Origin: an uncultured Persicobacter sp.
GTDB taxonomy: Bacteria; Bacteroidota; Bacteroidia; Cytophagales; Cyclobacteriaceae
Length of the DNA stretch: 64,000 nucleotides
Direction: 5' to 3'
Assembly: GCA_947498325.1 (NCBI GenBank)
Contig: CANMKE010000014.1
Location: 1 to 64,000, forward strand
Below, in pieces: positions 8,618 to 25,142 of the stretch. Both the position numbers and the translations under genes were made by a program. A model generated the notes under the pieces. It was not told where the DNA came from. It saw only the letters and a list, made by a program, of their open reading frames with translations, and did no database searches. Numbering within the stretch: the first letter of the stretch is position 1; each line of letters begins with the position of its first letter.

Positions 8618-10672
8618 ATGACAAATAATACACTTAAACCAAAAGGCCTGTGCCTATGGATGATGGCTTTCCTTTGGGTGGCCACTTTTGCAAACTTGCC
8701 ACAGGCTAAAGCGCAAACGATCACAGAGATGACCCCGGCGCTATTGCCTGGGGCAACAGGTAACCTGATGGGTACCGACCTGGACCAGTTGACCGGTCTG
8801 AAGCTGAACGATGTTGCGCTGACCATTACCGCACAATCGGCTACGGAAGTTACCTTCGAGGTGCCCGAAACTTTCACCCCTGGCGGCGGAAAGCTGATGG
8901 TGCAGTTTAACGATGGCGATTATTCAGAAATTGATGAAGGTAATAAAGGGAAGCTCTATGTAGTCGACCGTGTTTCTCCTGCGGAGGTGCTGGTTTTTTA
9001 TGAGCCATTCGTCCACCCAATTTTAGGAAATACACCTAACGGTGAGCCGATTGACGGAAACTTTATCTTTGCCAACAATGGCACCCTGACAGCCACGGGA
9101 AGTGGTGCGGTACAGGTAGGTTTTACCCCTGCCGCGCAAGTGGGGGAGTATGGCGGCTTCTCTGGGCAACAATGTGTGCAGTTTAATATGCAGGGGGGCG
9201 AATCTGGTGAGTTTGTGCTTTCGGGCATTAATACTGAAGGGCTGGAAAATATCCGTCTGACTTACTCTTTAACAGGCCACAGTGGTGGCGCCCAGATTGG
9301 GGCAGCTGGCTTTACGGTTTCATACAAAGATGGAGATGGTGATTGGGTAAATATTGGTGGGATTGCTGGAGTTGCGGCTGTTTTCAAAAAAGTGAAACAG
9401 TGGAGAAATGCAAACCCACTGCCTGCAACGGATAACCTGAGTATTAAATTTGAGTTTACTGCGCGTGCGTCAGGGCGCCCAGCTTTATTGGATGATATCA
9501 ATATTACGGGTTACCCGGAAGGTTCTGCGAACATTTCGCATTTTGAGCCTGAAGCGCAGGTGGTCGGAAAGCAGGTAACTGTTTACGGTTCCCGCCTCGA
9601 TAATGTCACTGGGGTGAAAATTGGTGAGGTAGATATTACAGAATATTCAGTAGCGGAAAATAATAAGTTTATCACCCTTACGGTGCCTAAAGGGGCGGAG
9701 TTAATCAATGAGGGCGTGAAGAATCAGGAAGGTCTTGGCCGTATCGAGGTTATCCGTTCACAGGGCGGAAATGTGTATGCTGCCACACCGCTGAAAGCGA
9801 TGAGCGCAGATCCTGGCGTGCTTGGTTTGTCGCCAGTGGTGGCGCCTGCCTTGTCTTATATTTACATTTATGGTAGCAACCTGCACAATGCCACAGCGGT
9901 GAAATTCAATGGTGTGGAGGCTACGGATTTTATGGAGGTAAAAGAAGATACTTTGGAGGTGCTGGTACCTGAAGGCGTAACTGACGGCCCAATTTCCATC
10001 GCGACAGCCAATACGGATTCTGTAGCGGTATCAGATTTGACTTTCATGGTGGATGAGGACTTTCCATTGTTCGGCCTCGAATTGAGTGCTGAAGAAGGTA
10101 ATGAACTTGAGGAAACCGAAATTGATGTTTACCTGCAAGCCAATGCGGCAGCAGAATCAGCAACTTCTGTAGACATTGAAGTGAGCGGGGAAAATATTAA
10201 TGATGCGGACTATTCGCTGAGTAAATCAATGCTGACACTCGCAGAGGGTGAAACAATGTCGGAGATGGCAATGCTGAAAATTTTGAATGATGATGATGAT
10301 TACGAGGAGGAGGAAACGCTGATCATGACACTGACGAACCGTGATGGTGAAGGGGCTGTTTATGGACAAGGGCGCACTGCCGAGGTTCGTATTGTTCTTA
10401 AAACACCTCTTGATGCCCTTGAAGGAATCGCGAAAGATTTGTTGATTTATCAGCAGGCAGACCAGTTGGTGATCAACAGCGAGACCACTGATTTTACCAA
10501 TGCTGCTGTGGCGTTGTACAATTCAGCAGGTCGATTGGTACGCTTCAAGCAGGTGGCGTCTTCAGCTTCAACGGTTCGCCTTTCGACAGCCAATTGCACC
10601 ACAGGCGTTTATTTTGTACGTATTGCTGACCGAAATGGGGTAAGTGCGAAAAAAGTCATGATTGTAAAATAA
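8618..10672 (+). CDS. T9SS-secreted IPT/TIG-domain surface protein, SusE-position (locus A)
   Basis: Probable surface glycan-binding protein of 684 residues. A Sec signal peptide (about 1-33) has no lipobox cysteine. Next come an IPT/TIG-like Ig fold (35-110), a beta-sandwich of about 180 residues ending in ALLDDINITG (about 120-300), and two more IPT folds (about 302-395 and 400-482). A Calx-beta-like domain follows with an acidic DDDDYEEEE stretch (about 484-600). The last 80 residues are a type IX sorting domain (ALYNSAGRLVR ... GVYFVRI ... KKVMIVK). The position right after SusC/SusD implies a role like SusE/SusF. Carbohydrate binding is inferred from position and fold. The beta-sandwich resembles the four repeats of the giant protein at 18.8 kb. 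What is odd is the T9SS export in place of a lipid anchor, unlike the equivalents in loci B and C. Confidence 0.82.
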   Translation: MTNNTLKPKGLCLWMMAFLWVATFANLPQAKAQTITEMTPALLPGATGNLMGTDLDQLTGLKLNDVALTITAQSATEVTFEVPETFTPGGGKLMVQFNDGDYSEIDEGNKGKLYVVDRVSPAEVLVFYEPFVHPILGNTPNGEPIDGNFIFANNGTLTATGSGAVQVGFTPAAQVGEYGGFSGQQCVQFNMQGGESGEFVLSGINTEGLENIRLTYSLTGHSGGAQIGAAGFTVSYKDGDGDWVNIGGIAGVAAVFKKVKQWRNANPLPATDNLSIKFEFTARASGRPALLDDINITGYPEGSANISHFEPEAQVVGKQVTVYGSRLDNVTGVKIGEVDITEYSVAENNKFITLTVPKGAELINEGVKNQEGLGRIEVIRSQGGNVYAATPLKAMSADPGVLGLSPVVAPALSYIYIYGSNLHNATAVKFNGVEATDFMEVKEDTLEVLVPEGVTDGPISIATANTDSVAVSDLTFMVDEDFPLFGLELSAEEGNELEETEIDVYLQANAAAESATSVDIEVSGENINDADYSLSKSMLTLAEGETMSEMAMLKILNDDDDYEEEETLIMTLTNRDGEGAVYGQGRTAEVRIVLKTPLDALEGIAKDLLIYQQADQLVINSETTDFTNAAVALYNSAGRLVRFKQVASSASTVRLSTANCTTGVYFVRIADRNGVSAKKVMIVK

Positions 10673-13274: not shown

Positions 13275-14087
13275 ATGAATCAAATCGAAAAACCAATACA
13301 TAGAAGTTCTTTACGAAGAAAAATAGGACGAGAGTATTATATATTAAAAAGGAAAGTTGAATGGATTTTGGGAGATAAAATATATTCAAAAACAAAAAGT
13401 GACTTTAAATATAAAAATATCGTCTTTTCTCATAAGTCAGTAATTTTACGAAAACTTAAGGATGTTGATATGTATTTGCAAGATAATAAACGTAAAAATT
13501 TAGATATTGCTATAAATCATATTAATAAAATAATAATCAAGCCAGGTGAGACATTTTCAATATGGAGGCTAGTAGGACGTCCGACTAAAGCAAAAGGCTA
13601 CCAAGATGGGCTTGTTCTTATTCAAGGAGGAATTGGGAAAGATGTTGGAGGAGGATTGTGCCAATTAGGGAATCTGTTGTTTTGGATTTTTGCTCATTCT
13701 CCATTAGTAATAAAAGAACGATATAGACACGGATTTGATGTTTTCCCTGACGTAAATAGAAAAGTTCCATTTGGTGCAGGAGCAACCTTGTCTTATAATT
13801 ATATTGATTTACAAGTCAAAAATGAAACTGAGAATGTTTTTCAAATAAATCTTTGGCTTGATGATAAATATTTAAATGGGGAATTATTGAGTAAGGAAAA
13901 GATTAAAAGTAAATATCGGATAGAGGAACGAAATCATTCAATGAAACAACAATTTTGGGGAGGATATTCTCGACATAACCAGATTTTTCAAATAGAAGAT
14001 AATGAAGATGGAGAAAAAGAAAAACTTTTGGTTGAAAACCATGCAATAATGATGTATAATCCTTTCATCGAGAGCAAGAAGTTATAG
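13275..14087 (+). CDS. VanW family protein
   Basis: 270 residues with the VanW domain at about 85-195: the motif KPGETFSIWRLVGRPTKAKGY is followed by GGIGKDVGGGLCQLGNLLFW and the hydrophilic HGFDVFPDVNRKVPFGAGA segment. VanW was named from glycopeptide-resistance clusters, but its biochemical role is not established. Many non-resistance homologues exist. There is no signal peptide, and the N-terminal 80 residues are strongly basic. Composition is AT-rich like the rest of the islet. The gene begins 33 bp after the attC-like site and is followed at 14090-14098 by AATGCTAAC, the inverse of GTTAGCATT at 13236-13244, so it sits between 9-bp inverted repeats. Confidence 0.85.
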   Translation: MNQIEKPIHRSSLRRKIGREYYILKRKVEWILGDKIYSKTKSDFKYKNIVFSHKSVILRKLKDVDMYLQDNKRKNLDIAINHINKIIIKPGETFSIWRLVGRPTKAKGYQDGLVLIQGGIGKDVGGGLCQLGNLLFWIFAHSPLVIKERYRHGFDVFPDVNRKVPFGAGATLSYNYIDLQVKNETENVFQINLWLDDKYLNGELLSKEKIKSKYRIEERNHSMKQQFWGGYSRHNQIFQIEDNEDGEKEKLLVENHAIMMYNPFIESKKL

Positions 14088-14700: not shown

Positions 14701-16143
14701 TCAGTTGAGTAAGGGATTCATTTTTTTGCCATAATATGGGTAAGTGTCGAAAAGATGTTCGCCTTTATGGAGGGTCGGATCTTTTGTTTTTTCCCGCCAG
14801 TGGAGGAGTTGTTTGGCCATTGCTTTCACCGTCTTTTTGTAGGCGGGCAGATCTGCCAGATTATTGACCTGGTCGGGGTCGTCGGAAATATGGTAAAGCT
14901 CATATTTTGGACGTTTGCCCACGGCCCATTGGTAAATTTTGCGACTCGGTTCCATGTTCAGGAGCAGGTCTTTGGTGGGGCTGGCATCAATATCTCCGAA
15001 GCGGTTGCCATCCGTTAGGGGGGCGCCTGCGGGATAGCGGTCAGGGAACAGGTTTTCGATCAGCAAAAACGAGTGATTTCTGATGGCCCGCATTGGGTAG
15101 GCCAGGTTATGGTTCCGCACATAGGCGTGTCTTTCACGTTCAAGATAAATTTCCTCCCTCCGCTCAAAAGCCGTATTTTTTATCAGTGGCAAAAGGCTCT
15201 TCCCCTGGTAGCTCGCTGGAATATCAAGCCCTGCAAGTTCAAGAAAGGTTGGGGCAAGGTCAATCAGGTTAATAAAGCTATGCTCTGTTTTTCCTGCTGA
15301 ATGGAGGTCGCTGCCCATCGCCATGGCCAAGGGGACTTTCGTGCCACTATCGTAGCAATTGGCTTTACTCCGTGGAAAGGGCATGCCGTTGTCGCTGGTG
15401 ATGACAATCAGGGTGTTGTCGAGTAATTTCTTGCGCTGCAGCACTTCAAGGATACTGCCGATATCGTAATCAAACCGCTGGACTTCATAATAATAATCTG
15501 CCAGGTCACTTTTTACAATATCATCGTCAGGCAAAAAAGCGGGGACAGTAATGTCGGAAATGTTCATGCCAGCACGTTTGCCCATACCTTCGGTATAAGG
15601 CCGATGCGGATCACGGCTCCCGTACCAGAAACAAAAGGGCTGATTTTCGGGGAGATTTTCAAAGAAAGGTTTGAAATGATCTACCCGATGCCCAGCAGGG
15701 TTATGGGTATATCCCCCCTGGGTATGGTCGCCAGGAGCCCATCCTTTTTCTTGATAGGCGACGGCATAACCGGCCTGTTCAAGCAGGGCAGTGTAGGTTA
15801 CGAATGATTTGTTCAGGCTGCCCCACAAATTGGCACCTTCTTCCAGCCCGTGAACGTAGCGGCCAGTGAGGATTCCCGCTCGGGAGGGCGTGCAGGAAGG
15901 TGCCGCCACATAGGCTTCGCTGAAGAGTACTCCTGAGGAAGCTACACGGTCGAAATTTGGGGTTTTTACAGTTAGGTCGCCATAAATTCCCGCATGTGGA
16001 AACGACCAGTCATCTGCGAGGATCAGCAGGATGTTCGGCCGTTTGTTTTGTGGCTGTGCCTGTCCAAAATGGGGGAACAGCCACAGTGCAAGGGAAGCGA
16101 GCAACAGCCGCTGCAAGCTCCCTATTTTTGTGGAATGATTCAT
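14701..16143 (-). CDS. S1-family sulfatase
   Basis: Formylglycine-dependent sulfatase of 480 residues that would remove sulfate esters (or N-sulfate) from glycans. A signal peptide covers about 1-29 (LLLASLALWLFPHFGQAQ). The metal-binding start RPNILLILADDW gives Asp43/Asp44, and the maturation motif is Cys84-Thr-Pro-Ser-Arg. Cysteine in this motif needs an anaerobic-type or FGE-type maturase encoded elsewhere. The second metal site is in IVITSDNGMPF. The start is the ATG of MNHSTKIG, 4 bp after the GH97 stop. The longer upstream frame would overlap GH97. The pair is therefore one operon, which suggests a sulfated substrate for both enzymes. Overall it resembles sulfoglucosamine sulfohydrolase-like S1 members, but the subfamily is uncertain. 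Confidence 0.93.
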   Translation of the reverse strand: MNHSTKIGSLQRLLLASLALWLFPHFGQAQPQNKRPNILLILADDWSFPHAGIYGDLTVKTPNFDRVASSGVLFSEAYVAAPSCTPSRAGILTGRYVHGLEEGANLWGSLNKSFVTYTALLEQAGYAVAYQEKGWAPGDHTQGGYTHNPAGHRVDHFKPFFENLPENQPFCFWYGSRDPHRPYTEGMGKRAGMNISDITVPAFLPDDDIVKSDLADYYYEVQRFDYDIGSILEVLQRKKLLDNTLIVITSDNGMPFPRSKANCYDSGTKVPLAMAMGSDLHSAGKTEHSFINLIDLAPTFLELAGLDIPASYQGKSLLPLIKNTAFERREEIYLERERHAYVRNHNLAYPMRAIRNHSFLLIENLFPDRYPAGAPLTDGNRFGDIDASPTKDLLLNMEPSRKIYQWAVGKRPKYELYHISDDPDQVNNLADLPAYKKTVKAMAKQLLHWREKTKDPTLHKGEHLFDTYPYYGKKMNPLLN

Positions 16144-16147
16144 AGGT

Positions 16148-18187
16148 TTAATTCTTGGCAATAGAACGGTTAGCTGGGGATACAATGGCCGTGAATCCGC
16201 CTCCTTTCTTCATGGTGATGGAAAGGGGCGCTTCCTGGTTCATTGATCGGTTAGAAACGTGGCATTTTTCTGGCGACGAATCATAGTCGGTATCCTCGGC
16301 ATCGGCAAAAATATCGAGGTTCATCTTTTCTATGCCCAGTTCGGCAAGGGAAAGTTCCACGGTACGCTCCTGCTGGCTGTTGATTCCTCCGATAAACCAT
16401 TGGTCACCATGTTTTCGTGCCATCACAATATATTCCCCAAATTTAGCATCCAGCACTTTAACGTCCTCCCAAACAGTAGGAACTTTATTCAAAAATTCAA
16501 AGGCAGGGTTTCCTTCATAGTTCTCTGGCAGGTCGGCCAACATTTGCCACGGGCTGAAAAGCACCACGTACAAGGCCAGCTGATGGGACAGGGTGCTGTG
16601 AACACGTCGGTTTCTGCCATCATCCTTAGGGTGCCAGGGCGTCAGGTTTGGACGGTGCTTGTCGAGTTTGATATCAAAAATTCCCGGCGTATAATCCATA
16701 GGGCCTGAAAGCATACGTGTGTAAGCGACATCTACGGCATGGCCTACCGGCAAACCTTCCGACCAGGCTTCCATCTCCATTCCGCGTACCGCTTCAGCAG
16801 TAATATAGTTTGGATAGGTCCGTTCGGTACCCGAGGGCATAACGGGCTCATGAATATTGATCATGATTTGGTGCTTTTCCGCTTCCTCGAGCACCTTTAC
16901 GTGGTGTTGTGAAAGTCGCTGGCCATGTCGCCATTCTGTCATGGGGCCTGAATAGCCCGTTTTTATCGAACGGATGCCGAGGTCCTCACACTGTTGCATG
17001 GCTACGGCCATTTCCCGCTCATAGCGTTCATACATTCCAGCGGTTTCGTGGTGCATCATCAGTTCCACCCCACGATCCTGGGCATATTTCGCCACCGCCT
17101 TCAGGTCATAATCACTTGCTTGCTGAACAAAACTGTAGGCTTCAGCAAAGCCGTCTTTGCCATAGTGGTCCCAGCCCGTGTTCCAGCCTTCCACCAAAAC
17201 GCCTTCAATGCCATTGTCAGCGGCAAAATCGATCAGTGCTTTGGTGCGCTCAGTAGTGGCGGCATGTCGGTCGCCCTCATACCAGGTCAGGTAGCCAATA
17301 TGCATCTCCCACCAGATCCCGAGGTAGCGCATGGGCTTAATCCAGTCGGTATTTTTTATTCTCGAAGGCTCATTCAGGTTCAGTACCAGATGGGAGTCGA
17401 ACAATTGCTGTTCATCTTCGGCAATCAAGATCACCCGCCAGGGAGAAGAGAAAGGGAGCTGGTCCACTTTCACTTCACTGCCGTCCGCCCATGGCACAAG
17501 GTAGCCCTCGAGCAGTTCGTCGCCTGTTTTGCGGAGTTTCATGTCTGGGTAATTCAGGATACCGGCCTGCAGGATCGATACCAGTGGCCCATTTTGTGAT
17601 TTCATGGTCACGGGAATATGGGCAGAATCCATCTCGTTGATCGAGGTATGGTGGTATGTTTTCTGATATTGTTTATTATGTGCCTGCGTCCATAGCGTGG
17701 GCATATTTTCGGCAAAGTGAAAAGTCGCTTTCTCCGTGAGGTTGAAAGGCGTTTTTTCCTGCCATTGCTGAATGGTGTATTGGTAGGCAGCGCCGTCGTT
17801 GTAGACTTTAAAGGTAACGGCAACCTCGGACTGGTTGCTTAGCGTGTAGGTCAGTTTTACGGCATTGAAATGGTCCGTAACCAACGATTTACGACCCAAT
17901 ACGGGTTTCCATTCTTGGTTTTTGCTGAAATTTTCAACCTTCTTAAGCTTCCATTGCAAGTGTTGAGCCTCATTGATGTCGAAGGCCGAAGAATCCATCA
18001 GCAGGCTATTCTTCTTGTAAATTTTGTAAAACGGCTTCCCCTCTTTGTTGAGGTTGACCGATAGCTGTATGCTATTGTCTGGCGAGGCAAGATCCACGGC
18101 GGCATCATTTGGCGCATGAACAATACTGCAACCGCCAATGCTTAAGATTGCAAAAATAAGCAACAGGTATTTGCTGGTGTATTTCAT
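16148..18187 (-). CDS. GH97 glycosidase, inverting-type active site, lipoprotein
   Basis: 679 residues with a lipoprotein signal ending at Cys20 (ILSIGGC). An N-terminal beta-super-sandwich (about 30-285) is followed by a TIM barrel from YLGIWWEMHIGY (about 289) and a C-terminal beta domain, the GH97 architecture. Glu381 (MMHHET) and Glu447 (NIHEP) match the two base glutamates of the inverting SusB type. Glu471 (GMEMEAW) matches the general acid. Where retaining GH97 alpha-galactosidases carry a nucleophilic Asp, this protein has Gly411 (SIKTGYSG). By family knowledge that predicts an inverting alpha-glucosidase-type enzyme; the precise linkage is inference. The gene leads the operon with the sulfatase and is divergent from the giant T9SS protein, which shares its upstream region. 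Confidence 0.93.
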   Translation of the reverse strand: MKYTSKYLLLIFAILSIGGCSIVHAPNDAAVDLASPDNSIQLSVNLNKEGKPFYKIYKKNSLLMDSSAFDINEAQHLQWKLKKVENFSKNQEWKPVLGRKSLVTDHFNAVKLTYTLSNQSEVAVTFKVYNDGAAYQYTIQQWQEKTPFNLTEKATFHFAENMPTLWTQAHNKQYQKTYHHTSINEMDSAHIPVTMKSQNGPLVSILQAGILNYPDMKLRKTGDELLEGYLVPWADGSEVKVDQLPFSSPWRVILIAEDEQQLFDSHLVLNLNEPSRIKNTDWIKPMRYLGIWWEMHIGYLTWYEGDRHAATTERTKALIDFAADNGIEGVLVEGWNTGWDHYGKDGFAEAYSFVQQASDYDLKAVAKYAQDRGVELMMHHETAGMYERYEREMAVAMQQCEDLGIRSIKTGYSGPMTEWRHGQRLSQHHVKVLEEAEKHQIMINIHEPVMPSGTERTYPNYITAEAVRGMEMEAWSEGLPVGHAVDVAYTRMLSGPMDYTPGIFDIKLDKHRPNLTPWHPKDDGRNRRVHSTLSHQLALYVVLFSPWQMLADLPENYEGNPAFEFLNKVPTVWEDVKVLDAKFGEYIVMARKHGDQWFIGGINSQQERTVELSLAELGIEKMNLDIFADAEDTDYDSSPEKCHVSNRSMNQEAPLSITMKKGGGFTAIVSPANRSIAKN

Positions 18188-18776: not shown

Positions 18777-21700
18777 ATGCGAAAATTGAACCCATTAATT
18801 TTGCTTGTGCTCTTACTTTGCCTTTGTACACAAGCGTTTTCTCAGGCTTGGCAAAGCATGAACCCTGGCGGTGGAGGGCAGATTCAGGACCTCTATTTTG
18901 ACCCTGAACACGAGGGCTGGATTTGGTTCAGCAGTGATATGGAAGGGACGTATCTTTCGAAAGATTACGGCGAAAGTTGGCAGTTCAACGGGCGGGAGCT
19001 GGCCCATGGAATGGCCTTTACGGTCTGTAAGGAACATGCCTCAGCGCAAGCCCGTCGGCGCCTGTACCAGGGGGGGCTTTTTGGGGCACATTACACCGAC
19101 GACGATGGTGCGCATTGGCGCCTGATCAACGAAACCAAGGGAGTGGCCATTGCTTCCATTGCCATATCCGCAGATAACCAAACCGTTTTGCTCGGGCCGG
19201 GTTGGCAAAATAAAGACCCACAGAAAGGGCAATATGCGATCATCGATCCTGTTCAACCCCTGACGGGCCCACGGACGGTTTTTATCTCCCATGATGCGGG
19301 GGCTTCCTGGCAGGAGGTGGGTTATGAGTCCACCGATGGTTACCATCAAATTTATGCCATGAACATCAACCCCGTTTCGGGGGATATTTACATCGCTGCT
19401 GCCGCAGGACTTTACATTTCCCGTGACCAGGGGCATAGCTTTAGTAGGATCAGTAACCCCGCCGGTACCTCAGCTGTAGCCAACGGAGGGATTGCCGCTA
19501 CCAGCAGGGAAGAGGGGGCCTGTCATGGTGTAGCCATTTCGCCCGATGGTCAGCAGCTTTATGCCATCTACCGGTTGGATGCCAACCATACCGCATTGCT
19601 GACTGTGGCCACGGAGGAAGCCAATGATCCCAATGCGTGGCGTAGCCTGATGGATGACAACATTTCGACACAGGCGGAATGGTATGATGTGAAGGTTGAT
19701 CCACGCTCGTCCGCAACAAATGTAAAATTACTCATCGGCACTGGCCGCACAAGTGCCGACGACCGCAAGGGATTATGGGAAGCAACGGTCGCCTATGCGT
19801 CGGGAGAATACCAGTCGCATCAATGGCAGCTGATTGCCGACAGGTCGGGATTTGATATGGAAGTGGGCTGGCAGGCGATACCTTTCGTTTCCCGCGCTTT
19901 TGACTATTCGCCACTGAGCTGGAGCGAACGGAAAATTGTAACCATGGGCGGGATGAACGTCTTTCTCGGCCATCCTGATGCCGCTGGCTGGCCGACTTCC
20001 GCAGAAAGCTGGACGAACATTTATTGTGACCCTTCGGAAGATAATTTTGGGCATCATACCACCTGGAGCCATAAGGGTTTTGCAAGTCCGTTCACCAACG
20101 ACGTCTGGGCTTATAAAAACTATGTAATTCAGGGTGGCGCTGACCACGGGGTGTTGGAAAGCTGGGATTATGGTAAAAGCTGGACTGACGAAACAGGGCC
20201 CGAAGGCAGTACCAATTCACAGGCGGTAGCCGTTGTGCCCACCTCACCAGCCATTATTTTGGCAGACAGCCGTGGGGGCTATGGCGCTGCGGCACCTGAT
20301 AAAGGGAAGTTGTATGCGAAAGTGATAGAAAATGATGCGCAGCAGAGCGAGAAATGGTTTCAGATTGGTGGTGGAGGAGAGCAGTTCAAAGGGATGCTGC
20401 CACGGCAGTTCCGCGCCATCGCTGTGGATCCACAGAATCCCGAGCGGGTGTATGTAGGAGCAAGGACAGTTTATGATATTGGCGGGATATGGACCACCGA
20501 GCAATTTACTGAACTGGTATTTGGCGATGGACAATGGACCAACATTGCCAACAGTGAACTGAATCAGCTTACGGTTGCGGATGTATGGGTCGATCCCAAC
20601 GATTCACAGGTGATCTGGGTGCTCGCAGGCGGGAAAGTTTTCCGTGGGCAGGAGCAGGAACCCATGGTGTGGTCATGGCGTGTGGTGGACCTTGACGCAA
20701 GAGATTTTTATGTCTGGGATAGAAATGGCCAAACGGCCCTCGTGGCGGCGGCGACCATCAATGGGGTCAATGCGATCTATTGGTTTGAAGCGGCAGCGGG
20801 AAAAAGCTGGGAGCAACTCAGTGATTGGCGCAATACAGGACTGACGATCGAACAAACCCTGGCTATTGATCCTCAGGAATGGGTGCAGGGGCTTGGCACG
20901 CATAAACTGGCCTTTAATGGTCTGGCGGCCCATGGCGATCATATTGTTGTGGGGACCGAACTGTTAAGACACAAAAAAGGCGTGGGCATCTTCCGTGCCA
21001 CCATCTCTGGCACCGATGTTTCCTGGGAGAACTGGGCCACTGATCCCACAGGGCAGCGGATGATCTATCCACGGGCAAGACAGGCACGTGTTCAGCTTGA
21101 TGAGTCCGGGAACCCATATTATTATATGGCCACCACCGGTACCGGCCCATGGAAGCGTTTACTGACCGCTACTGAGCAGCAAAATCCAATACAAACCGGC
21201 AGCACTTCGATCACCGATATTTGCCTGACGGAAAACAGCGCAGCAAACGTCGCACTGCCTTTTACCTATGAGGCTTCCATATTCTCTTCGGAAACGGTTT
21301 TTTCGGTAGAAATCTCTGACCCTCATGGGTTATTCGGCAATTCGACGATCGTCGGGACACTAACAAGCGATGGCAGCGGGCAGCAGGAAGCCGCAGTGAG
21401 CCTGCCGACCGATCTGCTTTCAGGAACCAACTATCGGCTCCGTGTGGTGGACCTGGAACAGCAAATTTTTGGAACAGAAAATGCCAATGGCGGATTGACG
21501 ATCATAAAAAATTCCGCAGAGGTTAAGGAAGTATCCGCAGAAATCACCGAAGGGGAAGTCCTCTTGCAATGGCAATTGCCCCAAGGATGTTTCGAGGAAG
21601 TTTGGGTAGTGGTGGCCGAAGAACAGCCGGTGGGCGCGAGCTCGGAACTTACAGGGATCGGCGAGGGATTTACAGCAAGTCCGATTTTTGGGGAAGGAAC

Positions 21701-24700
21701 GACCCTGCTGAACGGTTTTCTTGCTTATAAAGGGTTGGGCACTTCGGTAAAGGTGGAAAACCTCAGCCCTTTGAAAACCTACCACTTTCGGATATTCACC
21801 CGCAATGGTTCTTTTTATGCGGAAGGAATTGAAACCAGCAGCCTGTTTATCTTTCCGCCACAGGTGCAGCATTTTGTGCCGGCAACTGCGGCGGTGGGTG
21901 AGGTGGTGCGTGTGGAGGGGAAGTATCTTACCGACCTCACGGGCGTGAGCGTGAATGGTAAATCAGTGGAGTATCGCCTGCTGAACGATCAACAGCTGGA
22001 ATTGATCATCATGCCTGCGCATACCTCGGGCCCTGTACAGATAAGTGGGGCGCACGGCAGTACCCTTTCCGAGGTATTGCTTTACATAAACCCCAAGCCA
22101 CAGTATCCTCTTATTTTTTCGGTGGAACAAATGGATGGTGCAGATGCCTTTGCGGAACAGTCCATTACCGCCCATGCGCAACAAGGTGGTTTTGTCAATG
22201 ATTTTTTATTTGACGGTACAGCCTCCGTCATTAATAATGCCATCTCGGAGGGCTACGAAGGCGCCTCAGGAGCCAATAATGTGATGTTTGATGCCCCTGA
22301 GGAAACCTTTGTTATCAATAATATTCCTGTCGCTGATTTTCTGAATGTCAGCTTGCAGATGGGGCTTCGGAAAAATAATATTACAGACAATGGCGAGGGG
22401 ATGCTGGTGGAATTTAAAACCGGGGCGGATGACTGGCAGCCGCTGTTTACGCCTATGGTTACCGGACAGGGAACCGCCGACTGGCATGTGGTGGATGCCT
22501 ACGGTGAAATTCCCGAAGCGGAAAATTTGCAGATTCGCTTTCAGAAAAAAAATGAAACCAACTGGCGGCTGGATGATCTTCAGTTTCGGGGGCTGCCGAA
22601 AAACACCGGCGTGATCGACTTGCGGTCTTTCAGCCCTCAACAGGGGGCCAACCTCGATACCGTCCTGCTGCGTGGGCGCGGTTTCAGCAATGTGCATTCG
22701 GTGGCTTTTGGTGAGCGTTATGCTGAATTTATTAAAATTTCAGATACCGATTTGCAGGTGATTGTTCCTGAATATCTGACTCAAAATGCCTACATCCGTT
22801 TGCTTTCTGTGCAGGAAACGGTGTCGGAATCCCCCTTTTTGCTTCAGCAGCGAAAGCCCGTGATTTACAAAGAATCGCTGGAGGGGGGATATTCAGCAAA
22901 AGTGAATGTGCCCTTGCAGGAATTTGTGCAGGGTGGTGGCTTGGTGAACGACTGGCTGGCAGTTTCTGGGGAGGCGGTGGTCAGGAATAATTCTCAGCCA
23001 AGCGAAGGCTATCGGGGTGTAAGTGGCAATTATTGTTTGCTGATGGATCAGATGGGGCATTATTTTCAGGTGGATGGTATCGATAGCCGTGGCTTCACCG
23101 ATATGAAACTCCGCTTTGGTTTACGGAAAAATTTTGCTGTGGAAGATGGCAGTGGCTTACGGGTGGAGGTAAAATCTGCCGACGGGCCGTGGCAGGCATT
23201 ACAGATGCCCCTGCCGACGGATAAATCATCGAATGAAGGCTGGCTGGTCGCTTATACTTATGGCGACATTCCAGCGACGGATCAGCTTGCTATCCGCATG
23301 ACCAAAACCAATGATACCAATTGGCGGATTGATGATCTTCAGCTGCTGGGCATCAGTGGCGGTCAGGCGCCTGTAGTTAATGCTGTAAGTCATCAGCAAA
23401 TCTCTGCAGGCGATACCGTAACTGTTTCGGGGAATCACCTCACCACAGCTTCGGTCTATTTTGGCACTGTTCCCGCACCGGTACTCTTCAATAATAGTGA
23501 AACCGTTTCGGTGCTTGTGCCTGCTGGCGTGGAAACTGCCGAGGGGGTGCTGATTGCCAACGACGGACAAGTGAATCTTGGCCTTTTCGAAGTGCCACAG
23601 CAAGGGTTTGTACGGGAAACCTTTGATGGCAATTGTTCAGGAAACAGCAATATTTCGGATTATACCTGTTTTCAAAATGCGCTGAATTTTTCAGGAAGTG
23701 GACAAATCAACTATAATTTTCGGCAGGAAAGTGATTATGAAGGCGCTTCAGCAGGCTATAATGCGTATTTGCGTGCGAGTGGGGAAGATTTTGTGATGCA
23801 AGGGGTGGACCTGTCGAACACCATCGATCCGCTGTTGCAGTTTGCGGTGCGTAAAACGGATACGGAAGAAACGGGTACCCAACTTAAAGTTGAATTCAAA
23901 AGCGAGGGGGCCGACTGGCAGGCGTTGCCTTACACCCTCCCGTCTGGCAAGGGGTGGTTCCTGACCGACAGTATCGCTGGGCTTCCTTCAGAATTAATTG
24001 ACCTGAGGTTTACCGCCCTTTCCGCTCATAAATGGCGCATTGATGATATCAATATTATTGGTGAGCAGCGGGTGTCCGATCAAGCGCAGATGACCGCCTT
24101 TCTGCTCCCTTCCCTCGGGCTGTCGCTGGAGATTGATCAGGAATCAGGCTTAATTAGCGGGGAAGTGGCACACGACACCGATTTAAGTTCACTGACGGCA
24201 GAAATCAAAATGACCGCAGGTGCATATGCGAGCCCAAATCCACTTTTGCCACAAAATTTCGATCAGGAGGTGGTTTATGCCATTGTGGCTCCTTCGGGAA
24301 ACACCAAAGAATACCGGGTGCTCCTCAGCAGACTCCCCGCTCCCGAGCCTGAACCTAAGCCGGAGCCAGAGATCCTTCAGAACTTCCGTGCCGTGGAAAC
24401 TTTTGACCATCCCGAAGCACTGGATTCCCTTGCGGGAAATATCGATCACCCCTATTTTGTGAATGAAGATATTCATTTTAATGGAACGGTATCGGTCGTC
24501 AAGCAATCGAGCTGGGAGAGTGATTACCTGCATGCAAGTGGAGGCTATGCAGTGAAATTTTCTTCCGCAGGAGATTATCTTGAGCTGGGCAATATCAATA
24601 TTTCAGAAATGGAAGACCCCATTTTATACTTTGGCATTTATAAAAACACCATCACAGAGGATGGGTCAAATTTCGGGGTGGAAATCAGCGATGATCAGGG

Positions 24701-25142
24701 CGAGAGCTGGTTGTCGTATGCGGTAGATTTACCCGTGGGCAGTGGCAGCAGCAAGTGGTATTATTATCATTTGGAAGATACCCTGCCTGCCCGGGATCAA
24801 CTGTTGCTTCGCTTTACGGCAAAAAACAGCAATAAGTGGCGACTTGATGACCTGATGATCAGTGAGGGGCTTGATGAAAATCACCGTAGTTTAAAGGCCG
24901 ATGAAAGCCTTTCGCTGGTCCGTATTTTCCCCAACCCTGCCAAGGGTAGGGTAACGGTGAAATCCAATTTTGCCATCACGCACCTTTCGGTGCTGGACAT
25001 GGCCGGAAGAACGGCATTAGACCTTCAGCAAGGGGTAGGAAAACAGGTTAAGGTGAATTTGAAAACGCTCTTGCCGGGAATGTATTTGCTGAAAATTGTT
25101 ACCGATCAGCAGACTTTCTATCAGCGTTTGCTGGTCCAATAG
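18777..25142 (+). CDS. Giant T9SS-secreted beta-propeller protein, GH74-like
   Basis: 2121 residues. The ATG of MRKLNPLILL gives a clean signal peptide (1-23). Residues about 25-790 hold many BNR/sortilin-type blades (YLSKDYGESWQ, FISHDAGASWQE, YISRDQGHSF, ESWDYGKSWT), arranged like a double beta-propeller. The start GGGGQIQDLYFDPEHEG...SSDMEGTY resembles the GH74 opening, with Asp54 at the GH74 catalytic-base position. Asp456 (IQGGADHGVLES) sits 402 residues later, close to the spacing of the GH74 acid/base pair. Next are an FN3-like domain, IPT folds (about 1026, 1278, 1533) and four related beta-sandwich modules (about 1111-1275, 1364-1524, 1612-1761, 1868-2031), each ending in a W/R-x-DDL/I signature. 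A proline-glutamate linker precedes module four. The T9SS tail starts at RIFPNPAKG (about 2044). Enzymatic activity is a hypothesis; the protein could be purely binding. Confidence 0.85.
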   Translation: MRKLNPLILLVLLLCLCTQAFSQAWQSMNPGGGGQIQDLYFDPEHEGWIWFSSDMEGTYLSKDYGESWQFNGRELAHGMAFTVCKEHASAQARRRLYQGGLFGAHYTDDDGAHWRLINETKGVAIASIAISADNQTVLLGPGWQNKDPQKGQYAIIDPVQPLTGPRTVFISHDAGASWQEVGYESTDGYHQIYAMNINPVSGDIYIAAAAGLYISRDQGHSFSRISNPAGTSAVANGGIAATSREEGACHGVAISPDGQQLYAIYRLDANHTALLTVATEEANDPNAWRSLMDDNISTQAEWYDVKVDPRSSATNVKLLIGTGRTSADDRKGLWEATVAYASGEYQSHQWQLIADRSGFDMEVGWQAIPFVSRAFDYSPLSWSERKIVTMGGMNVFLGHPDAAGWPTSAESWTNIYCDPSEDNFGHHTTWSHKGFASPFTNDVWAYKNYVIQGGADHGVLESWDYGKSWTDETGPEGSTNSQAVAVVPTSPAIILADSRGGYGAAAPDKGKLYAKVIENDAQQSEKWFQIGGGGEQFKGMLPRQFRAIAVDPQNPERVYVGARTVYDIGGIWTTEQFTELVFGDGQWTNIANSELNQLTVADVWVDPNDSQVIWVLAGGKVFRGQEQEPMVWSWRVVDLDARDFYVWDRNGQTALVAAATINGVNAIYWFEAAAGKSWEQLSDWRNTGLTIEQTLAIDPQEWVQGLGTHKLAFNGLAAHGDHIVVGTELLRHKKGVGIFRATISGTDVSWENWATDPTGQRMIYPRARQARVQLDESGNPYYYMATTGTGPWKRLLTATEQQNPIQTGSTSITDICLTENSAANVALPFTYEASIFSSETVFSVEISDPHGLFGNSTIVGTLTSDGSGQQEAAVSLPTDLLSGTNYRLRVVDLEQQIFGTENANGGLTIIKNSAEVKEVSAEITEGEVLLQWQLPQGCFEEVWVVVAEEQPVGASSELTGIGEGFTASPIFGEGTTLLNGFLAYKGLGTSVKVENLSPLKTYHFRIFTRNGSFYAEGIETSSLFIFPPQVQHFVPATAAVGEVVRVEGKYLTDLTGVSVNGKSVEYRLLNDQQLELIIMPAHTSGPVQISGAHGSTLSEVLLYINPKPQYPLIFSVEQMDGADAFAEQSITAHAQQGGFVNDFLFDGTASVINNAISEGYEGASGANNVMFDAPEETFVINNIPVADFLNVSLQMGLRKNNITDNGEGMLVEFKTGADDWQPLFTPMVTGQGTADWHVVDAYGEIPEAENLQIRFQKKNETNWRLDDLQFRGLPKNTGVIDLRSFSPQQGANLDTVLLRGRGFSNVHSVAFGERYAEFIKISDTDLQVIVPEYLTQNAYIRLLSVQETVSESPFLLQQRKPVIYKESLEGGYSAKVNVPLQEFVQGGGLVNDWLAVSGEAVVRNNSQPSEGYRGVSGNYCLLMDQMGHYFQVDGIDSRGFTDMKLRFGLRKNFAVEDGSGLRVEVKSADGPWQALQMPLPTDKSSNEGWLVAYTYGDIPATDQLAIRMTKTNDTNWRIDDLQLLGISGGQAPVVNAVSHQQISAGDTVTVSGNHLTTASVYFGTVPAPVLFNNSETVSVLVPAGVETAEGVLIANDGQVNLGLFEVPQQGFVRETFDGNCSGNSNISDYTCFQNALNFSGSGQINYNFRQESDYEGASAGYNAYLRASGEDFVMQGVDLSNTIDPLLQFAVRKTDTEETGTQLKVEFKSEGADWQALPYTLPSGKGWFLTDSIAGLPSELIDLRFTALSAHKWRIDDINIIGEQRVSDQAQMTAFLLPSLGLSLEIDQESGLISGEVAHDTDLSSLTAEIKMTAGAYASPNPLLPQNFDQEVVYAIVAPSGNTKEYRVLLSRLPAPEPEPKPEPEILQNFRAVETFDHPEALDSLAGNIDHPYFVNEDIHFNGTVSVVKQSSWESDYLHASGGYAVKFSSAGDYLELGNINISEMEDPILYFGIYKNTITEDGSNFGVEISDDQGESWLSYAVDLPVGSGSSKWYYYHLEDTLPARDQLLLRFTAKNSNKWRLDDLMISEGLDENHRSLKADESLSLVRIFPNPAKGRVTVKSNFAITHLSVLDMAGRTALDLQQGVGKQVKVNLKTLLPGMYLLKIVTDQQTFYQRLLVQ

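Follow-up and report, generated by a model that had tools for sequence, protein, structure and literature searches.

The subject of this analysis is a gene in a 64,000-nt stretch of DNA (the window) from an uncultured Persicobacter sp. (assembly GCA_947498325.1, contig CANMKE010000014.1, positions 1 to 64,000 of the forward strand). Its open reading frame (ORF) runs from an ATG at position 18777 to a stop at 25142 and encodes a secreted multidomain protein of 2121 aa. Judging from its sequence, this protein is probably a glycoside hydrolase (GH) that is sorted by the type IX secretion system (T9SS) and works in the manner of GH74 while forming part of a sister clade with a different substrate. 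A sugar-chain cutter with another target is probable because the protein combines the GH74 fold and Asp pair with a separate, little-studied branch and with copies of which some lie beside sulfatases. GH74 itself is known for xyloglucan cutting (PMC10317168).

The propeller of the window protein had one strong match among solved structures, 6p2k_A (residues 23–798, E 8e-62, phmmer). When we searched with a family profile built from the 13 copies in the own genome, 6p2k_A matched the propeller end to end (E 2e-246) and was followed by 11 GH74 chains (E 2e-18 to 2e-13); sortilin chains (E about 1e-4) and, weaker still, sialidases (E 0.02 at best) ranked below these. The AlphaFold2 model of the propeller (predicted local distance difference test, pLDDT, 88.0; predicted template modelling score, pTM, 0.87) gave the same order in Foldseek, with 6p2k at the top (TM 0.85) and GH74 crystal structures next (E 1e-23 to 4e-17). 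By VIA, 6p2k was superposed on the model over 720 residues (Z 48.0, 2.4 Å, about 27% identity) and the GH74 structures over 605–619 residues (Z 26.6–28.4, 3.5–3.8 Å). The model thus agrees with a GH74-type double propeller, in line with the GH74 relation proposed in an earlier reading of the letters made without database searches (the sequence-only reading), and the profile ranking points the same way. That reading had named a single sortilin-like propeller as the outcome that would contradict it; this fold was rejected, as the best Pfam stretch of that kind covered 66 residues and the model matched dual propellers.

The nearest solved relative bears the PDB title "AFV00434, an ancestral GH74 enzyme". 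The abstract of a 2019 GH74 paper is said to describe AFV00434 as a dual-propeller protein from a marine bacterium that is only distantly related; our literature search found no paper for 6P2K, nor for GH74 together with AFV00434, with a dual seven-bladed architecture, or with a propeller and an Asp as general acid. The whole propeller aligns with AFV00434/6P2K, in which both Asp residues and the motifs SDMEG and ADNG are present, and the window protein falls into this group by its homology along the full propeller and its SDMEG and ADxG motifs. Unlike 6P2K, it adds four sandwich modules, IPT domains, and a T9SS tail, and its gene lies in the vicinity of SusC/D genes. Because the 6P2K structure is solved, the protein is not wholly new, and the suggestion of an undescribed class was too strong.

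The two Asp residues provide strong evidence, at the level of aligned sequences, for a catalytic pair retained in a GH74-sister family. The GGGG start, the Asp-boxes, and Asp54 and Asp456 at a distance of 402 residues were all found in the ORF as first described. For comparison, GH74 genes were gathered from plasmid records (five rows in alignment A3, seven in alignment A4). An hhalign comparison of 27 family rows with the five GH74s (99.6%, E 5e-24) paired, unforced, the SSDMEG Asp with the RTDMGG Asp and the GGADHG Asp with the ALGDQG Asp. In the joint alignment of 39 family rows from four phyla and seven GH74 rows, both columns held Asp throughout (39/39 and 7/7). They were the sole charged columns among the 17 conserved in both sets (≥36/39 and ≥6/7). 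The seven GH74s have 11 invariant acidic positions, of which these two alone were also invariant in the family; the remaining nine were common to at most 28 of the 39 members. Since the pair is complete in both sets and no other of the 11 acids is invariant in the family, the match is more than chance. In crystals of the Cellvibrio japonicus GH74, 5fkq has Ala at the first of these positions and 5fkt at the second, with Asp at both in 5fkr. All of this bears out the placement of Asp54 and Asp456 in the columns of the GH74 catalytic pair. Two further GH74s have D60A and D465N in their PDB titles.

A non-catalytic protein would fit these columns less well. It is conceivable, although we think it rather unlikely, that the GH74-like propeller serves as a glycan-binding or scaffold domain that captures polysaccharide at the cell surface. 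The four sandwich modules, with a predicted fold resembling carbohydrate-binding modules (CBM) and MAM domains, would suit such a role, as would the Sortilin-Vps10 call of Pfam discussed below. A binder has no evident need of the Asp pair, however, and the pair stands at the GH74 columns in every family row even though these rows are ~25–44% identical to the window protein and the other nine acids are far less strictly kept.

A phylogenetic tree of 46 rows split the seven GH74 rows from the 39 family members with a support of 100/100. The branch between them measured ~3.4 changes per column (2.05 + 1.39 on either side of the drawn root). All seven GH74 rows in this tree stem from plasmid records, and the tree carries a warning about one long branch (L071); the family rows of L047 (near-copies of L046) and fragments, including L060, which is a fragment only, were left out of alignment A2 and the tree. 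Of the 76 GH74-invariant columns, 14 were kept in at least 36 of the 39 family rows. Where GH74 xyloglucanases (such as 6p2m, 6p2o, 5fkq, 2cn3, and 6mgj) share the dual seven-bladed propeller and the two Asp positions, they differ in having TDIGG instead of SDMEG and a Glu-Glu pair before the second Asp that is mostly A/S in the family (commonest replacements E424 to A, 16/39, and E425 to S, 33/39). The family therefore lies outside the GH74 clade, as a divergent class apart from it, which is what the sequence-only reading had envisaged. The separate clade and the few invariant columns kept also argue against an ordinary GH74 endo-xyloglucanase that has merely diverged in sequence. Such an enzyme would account for the common fold and Asp pair and for the title of 6P2K, but we consider it improbable, also because none of the 10 scanned window neighbours is a GH31, GH35, or GH95. 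These three are the partners named for the Xanthomonas xyloglucan locus in PMC8245568. What emerges from the sequence comparisons is a probable GH74-like enzyme by mechanism, outside GH74 by clade and signature, with one solved relative.

Sulfatases lie near some members of the family. The GH97 and sulfatase genes that had been proposed beside the window gene were both confirmed by a neighbour scan (Table 1), and Marinigracilibium (L043) has the same arrangement, with a GH97 homologue (45% identical) ~4 kb upstream of its family member and a sulfatase homologue (52% identical) after the GH97. Five of the 19 sulfatases of the own genome lay within 5 kb of a copy, with 0.49 expected (binomial P 1e-4, in a test that treats genes as independent, two of the five near ones being adjacent). 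In this set, two pieces on contig C24 were merged and three frames of 634–646 aa, which by their length we take to be probable lipoteichoic-acid-type enzymes, were left out. Their inclusion gave 5/22 (P 2e-4), and a 10 kb limit gave 5/19 (P 6e-4). A genome contig search yielded 21 external loci from Bacteroidota, Planctomycetota, Verrucomicrobiota, and one cyanobacterial metagenome-assembled genome (MAG); a sulfatase was present at 12 of them, a rate that has no background control.

Several observations weigh against a GH74-like enzyme. Sortilin-Vps10 was the sole propeller-type Pfam call above its cut-off (33.5 versus 33 bits); its match consists of two stretches, the best of which covers 66 of 446 profile positions, and is thus no full-profile match. 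Unrelated propellers also reached VIA Z 26–27 against the model, including Elp2 (590–612 residues, 5.3–5.5 Å) and single WD40 propellers (276–291 residues), so that the link to GH74 rests on sequence profiles and fold together. A GH74 profile at E 1e-10 over the own genome found none of the 13 copies and only a more distant propeller protein. Searched against the 39 family rows alone, the GH74 profile matched 28 and missed 11, with 36.5 bits for the window row, and the family profile matched five of the seven GH74 rows, the E-values of both searches referring to tiny sets. The similarity, described as too remote for a family call by eye, can be reached with profile methods, although a GH74 profile used on its own missed the copies in the genome search at E 1e-10. 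Finally, nine external loci of the 21, some of these nine being short contigs, showed no sulfatase. It is highly improbable that the protein is instead a hydrolase or lyase with a single propeller, sialidase-like or of another kind, and without kinship to GH74: Asp-boxes occur in sialidases as they do here, and Asp-box blades are common to sortilin/Vps10 and sialidase propellers, but the profile matches to sialidases are weak (best E 0.02), as are those to sortilins, whereas the match to dual-propeller GH74 folds and to the GH74 profile is full-length.

From the fold match, the aligned invariant Asp pair, the separate clade, and the gene neighbourhood, we infer the activity, the inverting mechanism, the endo action, the substrate class, and the role of the modules. 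By analogy with GH74, the protein is probably an inverting endo-glycanase that uses the GH74 machinery on another, perhaps sulfated marine, substrate. The polysaccharide would lie in the groove between the two seven-bladed propellers and be cut internally, with Asp54 and Asp456 acting as the acid/base pair of the inverting reaction, for which GH74 provides the precedent. A sulfated marine glycan is our best guess for the substrate, and the neighbouring sulfatase and GH97 may help to process it. The C-terminal beta-sandwich modules would probably hold the protein on the glycan, and the T9SS tail suggests that it is secreted and sorted via that system.

Table 1. Features of the window gene and its GH97 and sulfatase neighbours (aa, residues of the 2121-aa protein).
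Feature	Position	Strand	Basis
Entire gene, encoding a secreted multidomain protein of 2121 aa	18777..25142	+	ORF and translation
Putative signal peptide, aa 1–22	18777..18842	+	Inferred by eye
Double seven-bladed beta-propeller, aa 24–800, GH74-like, proposed catalytic domain	18846..21176	+	6p2k_A match, AlphaFold2, fold matches
Asp54 codon, SSDMEG motif	18936..18938	+	Aligned with Asp of GH74 TDIGG
Asp456 codon, GGADHG motif	20142..20144	+	Aligned with Asp of GH74 GDIGG
Fibronectin type III-like stretch, aa 918–1012	21528..21812	+	Pfam, 23 bits, cut-off 25
Beta-sandwich module 1, aa 1125–1276	22149..22604	+	Repeat comparison
Beta-sandwich module 2, aa 1373–1529	22893..23363	+	Repeat comparison; the module folded
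IPT/TIG domain, aa 1532–1597, best of three TIG stretches	23370..23567	+	Pfam
Beta-sandwich module 3, aa 1611–1764	23607..24068	+	Repeat comparison
DUF5018 domain, aa 1756–1848	24042..24320	+	Pfam
Beta-sandwich module 4, aa 1870–2033	24384..24875	+	Repeat comparison; weak CBM_6, E 0.0088
T9SS C-terminal sorting domain, aa 2050–2120	24924..25136	+	Pfam, NCBIfam
GH97, divergent neighbour	16148-18187	-	Confirmed by neighbour scan
Sulfatase, after GH97	14701-16185	-	Confirmed by neighbour scan

The layout of the remaining protein was assessed via profile scans and repeat comparison. Apart from the Sortilin-Vps10 call, IPT/TIG (three stretches), DUF5018, and the T9SS tail scored above their Pfam cut-offs, and fn3 and BNR below them. 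In NCBIfam, the T9SS tail alone passed; NF045728 (F510_1955 family glycosylhydrolase) reached E 2e-16 and was rejected, as its 60 bits fall short of the cut-off of 175. Neither scan assigned the propeller clade to a dedicated family. The four modules of ~155 residues and the IPT folds that had been read from the letters were recovered as four repeats of 152–164 residues in the C-terminal half and the three TIG stretches. One of these repeats, module 2, was folded (pLDDT 84.5) and resembled reelin, meprin MAM, CBM35, and CBM6 about equally by VIA (Z 9.6–10.4). Its Foldseek matches at E about 1e-4 included CBM61 and, in the top rows, Cry proteins; we read the latter as a common jelly-roll fold only and rejected kinship with Bacillus Cry proteins. 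Modules 1–3 had no Pfam match at E 0.01, and module 4 matched CBM_6 with 16.8 bits (cut-off 28.9), leaving none of the four with a curated CBM profile match. The idea of built-in binding modules is in keeping with the carbohydrate-binding-like fold predicted for the one module modelled, and sugar binding by these modules is possible. One sandwich module of the same kind is also present in a T9SS protein encoded next to a SusC/D pair (window 8618-10672).

Farther in the window lie GH53, GH2, SusC/D/E, a hybrid sensor, and two GH30 genes (SusC assigned by cluster, SusD by eye). Their link to the gene is uncertain because they lie behind a gene that is PAP2-like by eye. A VanW-like gene (by position) occupies 13275-14087; its pPP1 counterpart was flagged as vanW at 39% identity by RGI, and it is probably no resistance gene.

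Three further kinds of genes recur near or beside family members. An ADP-ribosylglycohydrolase-like gene was present at four of the 21 external loci (L043, L049, L053, and L059), and the own genome had one such match, between two copies on contig C46 (L017:8337-9599); no paper tying ADP-ribosylglycohydrolase to polysaccharide utilization and sulfatase was found in our literature search. A nucleoside-hydrolase-like gene lies beside family members in two phyla (L009:6642-7709, L048:8828-9766, L053:8959-9912, and L059:8982-9908; IU_nuc_hydro in the two scanned, the others by cluster). Taken together, these neighbours may point to a substrate that contains a ribose or furanoside. The third is a membrane protein (L017:5280-6719, L042:14961-16397, L045:19451-20887, and L048:9976-11394), permease-like by eye and without a Pfam match in the two scanned, whose copies in three other sources are 53–58% identical to the own copy.

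The other 12 of the 13 copies in the own genome share 27–44% identity with the window copy. Plasmid pPP1 of the Persicobacter psychrovividus type strain encodes a propeller with 99.0% identity to that of the window gene, and the host is this species or very near to it. Eleven of the 13 copies match type-strain plasmids (nine pPP1, one NZ_AP025294, and one NZ_AP025296); the two copies on contig C1 have no type-strain plasmid match longer than 44 bases. A protein annotated as malectin on type-strain plasmid pPP5 (L071:1366-5706) groups with GH74 in the tree. The more distant propeller protein recovered by the GH74 profile in the own genome (L016:831-4007, contig C13; E 7e-50 to the family profile) aligns an Asp with each member of the dyad (VDVSG and YDNG) and is perhaps a third branch keeping the pair.

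Among 58 sampled relatives (one from the genus, 35 from the family, and 22 from the order of the host), no full-length copy was detected, and seven of these genomes had short matches only (E 2.9e-4 or worse). In wider samples at E 1e-30, the family was found in one of 395 genomes of the phylum (the own one) and three of 194 genomes of the order (the own one and two of one other genus); as two (phylum) or five (order) candidates were scored per genome, copy numbers are lower bounds. Another genome of the order holds a copy with an in-frame TGA (G546:C2:62609-65014). Among viral contigs, none of 65 pattern-matching stretches encodes a relative. In the tree, Persicobacter copies are intermingled with copies from Flammeovirga, Tamlana, and Marivirga, a pattern that would fit transfer combined with old duplications. 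Term counts gave zero mentions of GH74, sulfatase, and xyloglucan in PMC5385347 (Flammeovirga pacifica) and PMC5300873 (Persicobacter), and the literature search found no paper joining GH74 with sulfatase and Flammeovirga.

More tentatively, the sequence data raise the possibility that propellers of the 6P2K type make up a new GH family, sister to GH74 and with the same Asp pair, that acts on sulfated marine glycans and has expanded in Persicobacter to 13 divergent copies, each perhaps adapted to its own linkage or pattern of sulfation. A sister clade that carries the GH74 Asp pair across Bacteroidota, Verrucomicrobiota, Planctomycetota, and one cyanobacterial MAG would be an unassigned tool for marine polysaccharides.

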